A DNA stretch of 64,000 nucleotides from Chloroflexota bacterium (lineage in GTDB: Bacteria > Chloroflexota > Anaerolineae > Anaerolineales > Villigracilaceae), in contig JACRLC010000006.1 in the NCBI GenBank assembly GCA_016235425.1, positions 1 through 64,000 on the forward strand, read 5' to 3'. Under the pieces are notes generated by a model that saw only the letters and a list, made by a program, of their open reading frames with translations, searched no databases and was not told the origin of the DNA. Both the position numbers and the translations under genes were made by a program. This document shows, one piece after another, positions 4,087 through 54,479 of the stretch (its first letter is position 1; every line of letters begins with the position of its first letter).

Positions 4087-4572
4087 CTACTCACCAGTTT
4101 GATTCAATACTTCGCCAACAATTGCTTGCGCGATGCCGAACCCTGATTTTTGCAGTCGTTCGATTTCAGGTTTAAGAGTTGGAATCAAGCCAAGTTGTTT
4201 GGCTTTGAGCAAAATGCCAATGGTTCCGATTTTGGGAATGTTGAGTTGTGAGAGTTTGCGCCTGCCCTTTCTCTCGTCCATCAAAACCCAGTCAGCGTTC
4301 ATTTCTTTTGCAAGGATAATTGTTTCCACTTCCCCCAAGTCCATTTCGTCAAGTAAAACATCCACCGCAAGACGATCTTGTGCTTCTACGACGCGAATCC
4401 AATCTGCGCTGGAAACCGCCTGTTTTGCAATTCCTTCCTCATGGCCACGAATAACAGTCTCATCGTAAACCGCTTGCGGAATGTAGACTTCTCCGAACAA
4501 TTCAAGCAGCAGTTCAAGCCTGCCAATGGATGCCAGTCCAATCAATGGTGTAGTATCAGAGACGACGATCAT
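4087..4572 (-). CDS. DUF3368 PIN-like domain protein, probable toxin
   Basis: A 161-residue protein with PIN-fold features: DTTPLIGLASIGRLELL at the N-terminus (first acidic residue), a middle Glu in LGEVETIILAKE, and DWVLMDERKGRR with the acidic pair near residue 95-100. DUF3368 proteins are predicted RNA-cutting toxins. Its start overlaps the stop of the upstream UPF0175 gene by four bases, the usual antitoxin-first coupling. The C-terminal 40 residues are typical of DUF3368 (IPKIGTIGILLKAKQLG). Family call is strong; toxicity is inferred from the pair. Confidence 0.82.
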   Translation of the reverse strand: MIVVSDTTPLIGLASIGRLELLLELFGEVYIPQAVYDETVIRGHEEGIAKQAVSSADWIRVVEAQDRLAVDVLLDEMDLGEVETIILAKEMNADWVLMDERKGRRKLSQLNIPKIGTIGILLKAKQLGLIPTLKPEIERLQKSGFGIAQAIVGEVLNQTGE

Positions 4573-50099: not shown

Positions 50100-51020
50100 T
50101 TACTGAACTTGGAGAAATTTCTCAATCGCAGGCGCGATGTCTGTGAGAGCACGGATGCCCGAGAAAAATTTTTGTCGCGCGCGCAAATCCCCAATCAACA
50201 ATAATGGGACTTTCGCGTCCGTGTGCCTGCGCGTGGACAAATCCTCCATGTTCCCATGATCGGACGTGAGCACGATCAAATCGTCTTCATCCTGCCACGC
50301 TTCGAGCAGGCCTTTCAACACCCCGTCGAATGTCTCCAATTGATTCACCGCCCAGGGCATATCCTGCTTGTGGCCGGCGTAGTCGCTGGCCCAGTATTCG
50401 AAGAGGGAGAAATCATATTGCCTGGCGAGTTCCGCTAATTTGATTCCCGCCTGAACGGGTTCATAGCTTGGCGCATCGGGGAAACCGAGGAAGCCGCGCC
50501 AGCCTTCGCCTGTGAAATCTGCGGATAGGGCATGGCCCGCGTAGAAGTCATCCTTGTTGAAGAGGGAGAGTCCCGCGTTGGTGACCGCGAGCGGAATGGA
50601 TGAATAGAGTCGCTTGCCCGATTCAATCCCGCCGAAGTAGCGCGGGGGATAGCCATTGAGCAGTGCGGCTTTCTTTCCCGCATGCACGGTTTTGGAAAAG
50701 AGTGTTGCCCCGTTGAGATAACTAGCAACTTCGGGATTTGGCTTCGGGCCGTAGTGGTAGCCGAGTTCTGCGGGGATGTTGATTCCCGTTAGCAGGATGG
50801 CTTGTCCCGTGGCGGATTGCGGCAGGCCTTTTACGCCAACACCTGCATCCACTGCAAGCAGGGTGGCGCGGTCACCTTCAAATGGCGCGGTGTGACGAGT
50901 GAGAGGTTTTCCGCCGATGAGTTGATTCAGGGTGGGGGTTTGTGCGCGTGCGAAGGGATTTATTTCGGGGTCGTTTTCGCCGAGTCCGATGCCATCGAGG
51001 AAGAGGAAGAGGAGATTCAT
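50100..51020 (-). CDS. Alkaline-phosphatase-superfamily metalloenzyme, iPGM-like
   Basis: 306 residues. LFLFLDGIGLG at the start gives the first metal Asp; TSDHGNMEDLSTRRHTDAKVP near the end holds the second metal site, both as in cofactor-independent phosphoglycerate mutase. The usual iPGM has about 510 residues with an inserted transferase domain; here that insert is short, so a phosphatase or phosphodiesterase is as likely. FEYWASDYAGHKQDM is well kept. I start at the ATG at 51020, as the longer frame is repeat sequence. Confidence 0.78.
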   Translation of the reverse strand: MNLLFLFLDGIGLGENDPEINPFARAQTPTLNQLIGGKPLTRHTAPFEGDRATLLAVDAGVGVKGLPQSATGQAILLTGINIPAELGYHYGPKPNPEVASYLNGATLFSKTVHAGKKAALLNGYPPRYFGGIESGKRLYSSIPLAVTNAGLSLFNKDDFYAGHALSADFTGEGWRGFLGFPDAPSYEPVQAGIKLAELARQYDFSLFEYWASDYAGHKQDMPWAVNQLETFDGVLKGLLEAWQDEDDLIVLTSDHGNMEDLSTRRHTDAKVPLLLIGDLRARQKFFSGIRALTDIAPAIEKFLQVQ

Positions 51021-51045
51021 GAGTACCAGTAAGCAGTGAGATAAT

Positions 51046-51206
51046 TCGCGCTGAGCGGAGTGAGACAGTGTTCCCTTCGACAAGCTCAGGACAGGCTTCT
51101 GTCGAACGCAGTCGAAGCGCGGGGCGCTTGAAAATTCGACGTTTTCTTAAAACCTGTCCTTCGACTACGACGCACAAAGAACGTGCGTCTTCGCTCAGGA
51201 CGAAGG
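51046..51206. repeat. GAGCGGAG/TCGAC dispersed repeat, long copy
   Basis: GCGCTGAGCGGAGTGAG, CCCTTCGACAAGCTCAGGAC, GTCGAACGCAGTCGAAGCGC and, inverted, GTCCTTCGACTACGACGC and TCGCTCAGGACGAAGG. The region between the two genes has a cascade of paired half-sites. Another short repeat, a CAGTGAGATAAT-type word, is at 51022-51040. Confidence 0.75.
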
Positions 51207-51758
51207 TTTCTGATACAAAAACCACGCGGAAGGGCGTTCGCGTTTGTCGAAGCCGTCTTTGCGGGAGAGGAGGGTCAGGCCTCGGGCTGAGATCATGTCG
51301 AGGTCGGCCGCGACAAGACCAGGTCCCGCGTGATGCGGGGCGGGGTTGAAGAATCCGTACATTAACCAGAATCCGCCCGGGACGAGGAGTCGAGTCAGTT
51401 GATCAAGATAAGCCGCCCGATCCTTCACTCCATGAAAACAGCCGATGTCGAGGGCAAGGTCGAATTGTTGATTCAGGTTAAGTTTGGTTACATCGCCTGC
51501 GTGGAGATCGGCAGTTACACCCGCGTGCTGCGTTTTTCGTTTTGCTATTTGGATGGCGCGGACTGCAAAATCCATACCCGTAACCTGCCAGCCCGCTTTG
51601 GCAAGGGTGATGACGTTTGTGCCTGTGCCGCAACCGAGGTCAATGGCGCGGCCCGCGGGATGGGTTTGGATGAAGTCGAAAAGTTCGGGAGGGGAGATGC
51701 CGCTATCCCAGGGGGCTTTGCCGAAATAGGAGAGGTTGAATTTGAGGCGGCGGAACAT
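51195..51758 (-). CDS. Class I SAM-dependent methyltransferase
   Basis: A 187-residue methyltransferase: motif I AIDLGCGTGTNVITLAK, motif II acid in VTGMDFA, and DLALDIGCFHGVKDRAAYLDQL, with LLVPGGFWLMYGFF as motif III. The pattern resembles tellurite-resistance/TehB-like enzymes. Substrate unknown. It lies 26 bases downstream of the thioredoxin-like gene on the same strand, so it may belong to the same transcript. Its C-terminus overlaps the dispersed repeat. Confidence 0.85.
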   Translation of the reverse strand: MFRRLKFNLSYFGKAPWDSGISPPELFDFIQTHPAGRAIDLGCGTGTNVITLAKAGWQVTGMDFAVRAIQIAKRKTQHAGVTADLHAGDVTKLNLNQQFDLALDIGCFHGVKDRAAYLDQLTRLLVPGGFWLMYGFFNPAPHHAGPGLVAADLDMISARGLTLLSRKDGFDKRERPSAWFLYQKPSS

Positions 51759-51765
51759 GTTTGTT

Positions 51766-51785
51766 GAGCGAGATTAATCTCGCTC
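51766..51785. repeat. 20-bp palindrome between thioredoxin and methyltransferase genes
   Basis: GAGCGAGATT and its complement AATCTCGCTC, centred at 51775/51776; a shorter member of the family at 41812 and 50066. Its last base is the first base of the thioredoxin stop codon. Confidence 0.6.
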
Positions 51786-52267
51786 TACGGGAGCGAATCG
51801 CGCACTTTCTGCGGGTCGAAATCGCCGACGGAGCGCCAGACTTCGTTGCCTTGCGCGTCGAAGAAAATGAAGGTGGGGGTGGATTCAAAACCATACACGG
51901 GCGCAAGTTCGCGGCCAACGGATTCCTGGATGTTGAGGCGAATGAAGAGGAGTTGATCTCCAAGTTCCTGTTCGAGCTCGTCAACGACGGGCTTTACGGC
52001 TGTGCAGGCAATTCAGTATGGCGATTGGAATTCGAGCAGGACGGGTTCGCCTGCGCCGATCATATCCCGCACCATTTTGGCATCGTCCATGAGCGGGGTT
52101 TGGCGCGGGTGCATGACGAACCAAGCCGTGACCAGCCCGCCGAGGATCACACCGAATGCAAGGTAATCCGTCCATTTTGGATTGCGGGAGAGAAGTACCA
52201 ACCCCGCCACCATTGCCAGCGCGGCGGCGATCAGAATGAAGGAATATTGATTAAGAACCGAACCCAT
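51785..52267 (-). CDS. Membrane-anchored thioredoxin, candidate selenoprotein (in-frame TGA)
   Basis: 160 residues if TGA at 52013-52015 is read as selenocysteine. Two N-terminal membrane segments (about 8-27 and 34-52), then a thioredoxin domain: LLEFQSPY, TGA (residue 85), IAC, TAVKPVVDELEQEL, then FIRLNIQ and the cis-Pro GFESTPTFIFF. TGA stands exactly where the first Cys of CxxC belongs, giving UxxC. The frame stays open for 75 codons after it. A hairpin of GCCCGTC/GACGAGC (one C-A mismatch) with loop GTT, 27 bases after TGA, fits a bacterial SECIS. GAGG precedes the ATG at 52267. The alternative is a nonsense mutation. No sel gene is in the window. Confidence 0.75.
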
Positions 52268-52348: not shown

Positions 52349-52397
52349 CACGCAACTGTTTGCTATATCCCATCCCATTTTGAAGGAAGGGTTTTCC

Positions 52398-54479
52398 ATG
52401 AAAGAGTATACCACTGAGTTTCTTCGCAACGTCGCTCTGGTCTCGCATGGAGGCGCGGGGAAGACGATGCTTGCGGAGGCATTTCTGCACGCAACGGGGG
52501 CGGCCACCCGCCTTGGCAAGGTGGAGGACGGGACGACGGTTTCGGATTATGACGACGAGGAAAACCGTCGAAAGATTTCGATTTATTCAAGTGTAATTCC
52601 CATTGAGCATCGCGATCATAAAATAAATGTAATCGACGCGCCAGGCTACACTGATTTCGTGGGCGAGGCTATTTCCGCCCTGAGTGTTGCTGATGGCGCG
52701 ATTATTTTAGTGGACGCGGTCGCCGGCGTGGAGGTTGGCACCGAGCTGGCCTGGCGCTATGCGGAGGAGTTCAAGCTCCCGCGCTTCTTCGTGATCAACA
52801 AGATGGATCGCGACAACGCCGATTTCGAGAAGACCTACGCCGCGCTCGAAGAGTTTGCCCGCACACACGGGAAGCGCGCCATCAAGGTGCATTTGCCGAT
52901 TGGCGAGAAGCATAACTTCAAGGGCGTGGTGGACATCATCGGCATGAAGTCATACATGGGCGACGGCAAGACGATTGCGGAGATTCCCGCCGACTTAAAA
53001 GACGCGGCGGAAAAAGCACACTTCGCGCTTGTGGAGGCCGCGGCCGAGGGCGAAGATGAACTGATGGAGAAATATCTCGAAAACGGTTCACTCTCGGACG
53101 AGGAGATGGTGCGCGGCCTGGAGGATGTGGTCTACGCTGGAGAATTTATCCCGGTCTTCTGCGCCGCGGGCGGACACGAGATCGGCGCAATCGCTCTCCT
53201 CAACGATATCATTGACCTGATGCCCTCGCCGAAGAATGCTCCCAAGCGAATGGCGCAAAACAAAGACAGCGAGGAGGAGTTGAAACCCTCCGACGCTGAG
53301 CCTTTGGCGGCTTATGTTTGGAAGACCACTGCCGATCCCTTTGTCGGCAAGATGACCTACTTCCGCGTGTTCTCTGGTTCCATTCAAGCCGATGCGCGTG
53401 TCTGGAATCAAAACAAGAACGCGGAAGAACGCATGGCGGGCCTGCACCTCCAGCGCGGCAAGGAAGGTATCCCCGCGAAAGTTGTCCATGCGGGCGATAT
53501 TGCTTCCGTCTCCAAATTGACCGTGACCGCGACGGGCGATACGTTCTGCGATAAAAGTCATCCACTCACGGTTGAAAAGCCAAAATTCCCCGCCGCACTC
53601 TATCGCGTGGCGATCGCGCCCAAGACGCAGGCCGACGCCGCGAAAATCTCGCCGACCCTCACACGTCTCTGCGAAGAGGATATGACCCTCACCTGGCAGA
53701 ACGATCCCATCACGCACGAGACCGTTTTGCAGGGCATGGGCGACCAGCACATTGACGTGGCCGTCCATCGCGCACAGACCAAGTTCCAGGTGGGTCTGGT
53801 TACGCACGAGCCAAAGATCCCGTATCGCGAAGGGATCACGCGCAAGGCCGCCGCGCAATATCGTCACAAGAAACAATCAGGCGGCGCGGGTCAATTCGGC
53901 GAAGTACATCTGCGCATCGAACCGTATCACGACGGCGACTTTGAGTTCACGGATGAACTCGTGGGCATGAATCTCTCGAAGTCATATTTGCCTCCCATTG
54001 AAAAGGGCATCAAAGCCACCATGGAACGCGGCGCTTTCGCGGGTTACCCGATGAGCAACGTGAAAGTGATCGTTTACGACGGCAAGGAGCACGAAGTCGA
54101 CTCCAAACCTGTGGCCTTCGAAATCGCAGGCCGCGAGGCTTTCAAACTCGCAGTGCAGGATGCGGGTCCCGTGTTATTCGAGCCAATCATGGAGGTGCGC
54201 GTAACCGTGCCTGACGCGAACATGGGCGACGTGATGAGCGATCTCAATACCCGCCGCGGCCGTGTACAAGGGACTGAATCCGAGCATGGCAGTACTACCG
54301 TTATCGCGCTTGTTCCGATGGCTGAGACAACGCGCTACACAACGCAGATCCGCTCGATCACAGGCGGGCGCGGCTATTTCACGATGGAGTTGCATCATTA
54401 CGATGTGGTCCCCTCCCATGTAGCCGCTCCGATCATCGAAGCGCACAAGAAGGAAATGGAAGCGAAGAAGGAAGAGTAA
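52398..54479 (+). CDS. Elongation factor G-like translational GTPase (EF-G paralogue)
   Basis: About 693 residues. G1 SHGGAGKTMLAEAF, G3 DAPGYTDF, G4 NKMDRDNADFEK, then EF-G domains II-V with a Tyr/Gly-rich ARR-GRVQG region NTRRGRVQGTE near the end. The GAGKT P-loop (Ala-Gly instead of His-Val/Asn-Asn) and missing parts of switch I match the EF-G-like/EF-G2 group rather than main FusA. Its role is not well set (stress or recycling). I start at the ATG at 52398; the longer frame has no ribosome site. It is divergent from the thioredoxin gene. Confidence 0.9.
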   Translation: MKEYTTEFLRNVALVSHGGAGKTMLAEAFLHATGAATRLGKVEDGTTVSDYDDEENRRKISIYSSVIPIEHRDHKINVIDAPGYTDFVGEAISALSVADGAIILVDAVAGVEVGTELAWRYAEEFKLPRFFVINKMDRDNADFEKTYAALEEFARTHGKRAIKVHLPIGEKHNFKGVVDIIGMKSYMGDGKTIAEIPADLKDAAEKAHFALVEAAAEGEDELMEKYLENGSLSDEEMVRGLEDVVYAGEFIPVFCAAGGHEIGAIALLNDIIDLMPSPKNAPKRMAQNKDSEEELKPSDAEPLAAYVWKTTADPFVGKMTYFRVFSGSIQADARVWNQNKNAEERMAGLHLQRGKEGIPAKVVHAGDIASVSKLTVTATGDTFCDKSHPLTVEKPKFPAALYRVAIAPKTQADAAKISPTLTRLCEEDMTLTWQNDPITHETVLQGMGDQHIDVAVHRAQTKFQVGLVTHEPKIPYREGITRKAAAQYRHKKQSGGAGQFGEVHLRIEPYHDGDFEFTDELVGMNLSKSYLPPIEKGIKATMERGAFAGYPMSNVKVIVYDGKEHEVDSKPVAFEIAGREAFKLAVQDAGPVLFEPIMEVRVTVPDANMGDVMSDLNTRRGRVQGTESEHGSTTVIALVPMAETTRYTTQIRSITGGRGYFTMELHHYDVVPSHVAAPIIEAHKKEMEAKKEE

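Follow-up and report, generated by a model that had tools for sequence, protein, structure and literature searches.

A gene on the minus strand of the window, the 64,000-nucleotide stretch of DNA from a Chloroflexota bacterium (Anaerolineae, Villigracilaceae) that was analysed, very probably encodes a membrane-anchored thioredoxin-fold oxidoreductase with a selenocysteine (Sec) nucleophile in a UxxC site produced by SECIS-directed recoding of UGA. The frame starts with an ATG at 52267, which has a Shine-Dalgarno-like GAGG 5 nt ahead of it, and closes with a TAG ending at 51785. Its sole interruption is a TGA at codon 85 (QSPY-TGA-IAC), at the place where the first catalytic Cys belongs, and 75 residues lie between this TGA and the TAG. 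The arrangement proposed in the earlier note, a two-helix anchor followed by a thioredoxin fold with TGA at the first redox Cys, was reproduced from the sequence, with agreement between the open reading frame (ORF), Pfam and an AlphaFold model; its expectation that a gene caller would cut the gene at residue 84 was borne out by table-11 ORF calling, which lists an 84-aa truncated ORF. The features of the locus are as follows.

51785–52267, minus strand: selenoprotein gene, 160-aa two-helix membrane-anchored thioredoxin, UxxC (U85-I-A-C88); from the frame, Pfam, homologues and structure model
52013–52015, minus strand: in-frame TGA, codon 85, very probably read as selenocysteine; TGA, TGC or TGT only in 134 homologues
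51975–51993, minus strand: bacterial SECIS-type hairpin, triloop GUU at 51985–51983, 27 nt between UGA and loop
52187–52243, minus strand: first predicted transmembrane helix, residues 9–27 (model helix 9–27; hydropathy maximum 2.3)
52112–52174, minus strand: second predicted transmembrane helix, residues 32–52 (model helix, hydropathy)
51195–51758, minus strand: SAM-dependent methyltransferase (Methyltransf_25/TPMT/TehB-like), 26 nt downstream
50100–51083, minus strand: phosphoglycerate-mutase-like metalloenzyme, downstream neighbour, conserved in 58 of 81 loci
52392–54479, plus strand: elongation factor G, divergently oriented neighbour (on the opposite strand in 68 of 81 loci), not functionally implicated

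The 160-aa readthrough product matched the thioredoxin family PF00085 (3e-10; 40.3 bits, gathering cut-off 23.5 bits) and also passed the cut-off of PF13098. In its AlphaFold model (pLDDT 86.5) a pair of helices precedes a thioredoxin fold, for which the closest solved structures in Foldseek were thioredoxins, as were the best matches in a profile search of PDB sequences. In the alignment of homologues, residues 85, 88 and P131 are invariant, comprising the UxxC/CxxC motif and the cis-Pro.

Codon at the redox site and the selenocysteine machinery

Of 152 genomes in the GTDB family, 84 contained a match to the selenothioredoxin, as did 99 of the 396 in a class-wide sample. The site codon in the 82 family loci that cover it was TGA (n = 61), TGC (n = 13) or TGT (n = 8) and nothing else, while 52 class sequences from outside the family had TGA (n = 35), TGC (n = 13) or TGT (n = 4), with no Trp or other codon. 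Among these 134 homologues, every one that lacks TGA carries a codon for Cys, the residue that the earlier note had looked for at this place, and the family alignment is conserved both before and after the TGA. Because TGA is present in 61 of 82 homologues from other assemblies, the sequencing error that had been entertained at this position is ruled out. When two conserved peptides were used as patterns to scan GTDB contigs separately, Chloroflexota records came up, an outcome that depends on the patterns chosen. Two class genomes (G274 and G449) each hold a TGA-type copy plus a stop-free copy, and the copy that was read in G449 has Cys. No match to the thioredoxin occurred in any of the 12 genomes of the class sample that come from other families of the same order, though SelA is present in 11 of them, a pattern suggestive of loss or replacement of the gene there.

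The 109-contig assembly of the genome (5.0 Mb; completeness 99.6%) contains SelA (448 bits), SelB (333 bits), SelD (353 bits) and a tRNA-Sec with anticodon UCA (70 bits; called by ARAGORN as tRNA-SeC (tca)), so that the missing machinery named beforehand as evidence against readthrough is present in full. The active site of SelD has an in-frame TGA of its own (CAGUASK), and one in-frame TGA occurs in FdhA, the formate dehydrogenase alpha subunit (SelD and FdhA loci L055:1501-2433 and L260, on contigs C20 and C106 of the genome). A second thioredoxin-fold candidate selenoprotein lies at L023:1450-1992 on the minus strand (contig C68 of the genome, near 4244-4477); it is a lipoprotein-like protein of 180 aa with a signal containing a lipobox-like LLASAC and the motif FTUGTC, and after its TGA comes a fully paired hairpin, GCCCAUG-GUU-CAUGGGC, whose register matches that in the two-helix thioredoxin. 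The genome probably encodes at least four selenoproteins, including the two-helix thioredoxin, SelD, FdhA and the FTUGTC thioredoxin.

The hairpin downstream of the TGA

Counted from the T of TGA, the arms of the hairpin in the window occupy columns 23–30 and 34–41 (51993–51986 and 51982–51975), with one C.A mismatch. On its own this copy has no more than moderate stability, with an energy of -7.0 kcal/mol for the core alone and -8.2 over +15 to +60 (bacterial model limit, -7.5) and a pairing probability of about 50% within 60 nt. The case that it is more than a chance structure comes from the family, not from single-sequence stability. A hairpin with a GUN triloop and its loop 27 nt after the UGA was present in 94 of 94 distinct Sec sequences, the loop starting with GU in all of them; columns 24–30 pair with 34–40 around the triloop at 31–33, and the family mean of the energy over columns 22–42 was -8.0.

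Among the stem cells, 85% were paired in the Sec family set vs 37% in the Cys set, the latter equal to its own shuffles, and double-change cells in the Sec family set numbered 14, compared with 2.3 in shuffles and 0–1 in sliding-partner controls. Under a null in which the protein was held fixed and synonymous codons were resampled, the Sec family set formed 5.95 of 7 pairs where 3.99 were expected (z = 16; energy z = -25), while the Cys family set did not depart from the null (pairs z = 0, energy z = -0.8). The class set, with 34 distinct Sec sequences, behaved in the same manner, with z-scores of 13.6 for pairs and -17.5 for energy, compared with 0.4 for the Cys forms. Compensatory changes include G-C to A-U at 28/36 (26 sequences) and, at 27/37, C-G to U-A (12 sequences) or to G-C (6 sequences). 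The Glu codon at the 3' arm position was GAG in 26 of 26 cases, compared with 22% GAG and 78% GAA elsewhere in the family. Pairing in the stem thus greatly exceeds the level that the encoded protein would impose, and the stem covaries, as a feature of the group that is absent from the Cys forms; the GTT-loop hairpin that the earlier note had placed 27 nt from the TGA, with G as its first loop base, was located and is kept, with compensatory changes, in the TGA forms only.

RNAalifold called no consensus structure in the 60-nt alignment, and an explicit helix count with the synonymous-codon null was used in its place; minimum free energy folds of single 47-nt sequences often chose other pairings. 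A search of Rfam gave no SECIS match, and its weak sRNA matches were attributed to chance. The bSECISearch constraints (quoted in PMC13188914) specify a loop of 3–9 nt with G in the first two loop positions, a spacing of 16–37 nt, a stem of 4–16 bp and an energy of at most -7.5 kcal/mol. In geometry the hairpin conforms to this model, with a 3-nt apical loop of G then U, a 27-nt spacing and a stem of at least 4 bp. It differs in its near-invariant core, CCYRUC-GUN-GAYRGG, whose register stays constant in much of the class, and in the core energy in the window, which falls just short of the limit.

Exchange of selenocysteine and cysteine, and other readings of the TGA

With the redox site masked, a tree built from 131 proteins required 14 Sec/Cys changes, of which 10 were forced by supported branches; as this was a quick tree with several long branches, its figures are approximate, and they count changes in either direction. 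Among independent pairs the hairpin accompanied Sec in 8 of 10 (median), and in none did it go the other way (p about 0.008). Within the family (152 genomes) the Sec or Cys state could not be tied to loss of the machinery, because nearly all genomes retain SelA (142/152) and SelB (139/152). Outside the family, SelA was missing from 11 of 20 Cys-type genomes vs 8 of 61 Sec-type genomes (p = 4e-4), and from 8 of 14 vs 2 of 40 among those with a completeness of 90% or more (p = 1e-4), counts that were transcribed by hand from tables, take 'no stop inside' as Cys where a locus was unfetched and include related, non-independent genomes. SelA was not found in eight TGA-form genomes of the class and a few TGA-form family MAGs, mostly incomplete assemblies.

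In known bacterial systems, termination competes with Sec insertion. Such competition, together with an anchor that is complete and conserved ahead of the UGA, would suit a gene with two products that matter, in which the 84-aa two-helix peptide has a role of its own and the insertion of Sec serves as a switch that responds to selenium. This is very unlikely, as the 10–14 Sec/Cys exchanges on the tree include Cys forms that cannot make the stub, which is therefore dispensable, and anchoring alone accounts for the conservation of the anchor. There is next to no chance that UGA is recoded throughout the genome as Trp or another residue: an in-frame TGA taken alone would suit a change of code equally well, but the homologues show only Cys codons and never TGG, TGA terminates long ORFs too, and tRNA-Sec(UCA), SelA, SelB and SelD are present. 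With only TGA, TGC and TGT at the site, recoding as Trp was rejected. A true stop, through pseudogenization or sequencing error with only residual conservation downstream, is equally remote and was rejected, for while TGA does serve as the ordinary stop of 9 of 33 long ORFs in the window, the TGA itself recurs in family homologues of separate assemblies and the full-length downstream protein, including the Thr-Pro loop, is conserved along with the RNA hairpin. Sec is very probably inserted at codon 85, and the readthrough put forward in the earlier note is supported by the machinery, the site codons, the conservation of the SECIS element and the Sec/Cys exchange.

Relation to known selenoproteins, membrane setting and implications

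Thioredoxin-fold selenoproteins with UxxC are a kind already known, from which the two-helix Anaerolineae subfamily is distinct. Experimentally verified Sec-containing Trx (PF00085, UxxC) is listed in PMC13188914, and PMC1794560 lists thioredoxin selenoproteins of Geobacter, Treponema denticola, Carboxydothermus and Anaeromyxobacter. The protein shares with them the thioredoxin fold, the N-terminal Sec of UxxC, UGA recoding and a Sec-using bacterial host, but has two N-terminal transmembrane helices, SPY-U instead of the usual W-C and a Thr before the cis-Pro. The thiol:disulfide interchange protein (PF13098, UxxC) and the DsbG-like and TlpA-type selenoproteins (PMC13188914) are likewise UxxC or UGC thioredoxin-fold proteins with a presumed disulfide action outside the cytoplasm; the two-helix protein differs in its anchor architecture, and the DsbE, DsbD and ResA models match it weakly. 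No NCBIfam model covers the subfamily, as all scores were below cut-off: the best thioredoxin score was 49.1 bits for cytosolic TrxA (TIGR01068; cut-off 96.8), and the DsbE, ResA and DsbD models gave 11.7–18.9 bits (cut-offs 123–330). No description of the two-helix subfamily in Chloroflexota was found in the open-licence literature.

Lys and Arg average 0.09 before helix 1 and 2.9 in the inter-helix loop. Given this K/R-rich loop and the positive-inside rule, the topology suggested is a cytoplasmic loop with the thioredoxin domain on the outer face. In the proposed mechanism, the UGA would be decoded by the ribosome with SelB and Sec-tRNA(UCA), both recruited by the hairpin inside the coding sequence (GUN triloop, 27 nt past the UGA), while release-factor termination at the UGA would leave a membrane stub of 84 aa. 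Tethered by its two N-terminal helices, the redox domain would lie at the membrane and most likely on the outer side. Where Sec is the attacking residue of a UxxC site it provides a reactive selenolate, and the resolving C88 and the Thr-Pro ahead of the fourth strand are conserved. The probable task of the domain is to reduce disulfides or other oxidised thiols, after which a transmembrane electron carrier of the CcdA/DsbD type could reduce it again; three CcdA/DsbD_TM-family proteins are encoded in the genome, and neither CcdA nor another redox partner adjoins the gene. The cellular role is thus probably that of an outer-face disulfide reductase, for which the partner and substrate named here are guesses.

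The methyltransferase at 51195–51758, a neighbour in 52 of 81 loci, is probably co-transcribed with the selenothioredoxin. TPMT/TehB-type enzymes methylate thiols, selenium or tellurium compounds, and the position of such a methyltransferase beside a selenothioredoxin is suggestive given these substrates. A broader proposal, speculative and on balance doubtful, is that the protein represents a class-wide subfamily, as yet without a name, of selenothioredoxins at the outer face of the membrane, with a SECIS in fixed register and at least 10 exchanges of Sec and Cys; together with the TPMT/TehB-like methyltransferase it might make up a redox module, handling selenium or chalcogens at the membrane, for instance.

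The arrangement recurs throughout the class, so that standard gene callers would cut this gene at residue 84, or miss it, in many genomes; most of the sampled Anaerolineae that carry the gene have it in the TGA form. SelA occurs in 318 of the 396 sampled class genomes and Sec use is therefore the rule in the class, a trait scarcely mentioned in searchable papers. The exchanges of Sec and Cys among related genomes, often with the machinery intact, are a natural experiment on the retention or replacement of Sec, and also inform on the decay of the SECIS element after replacement.
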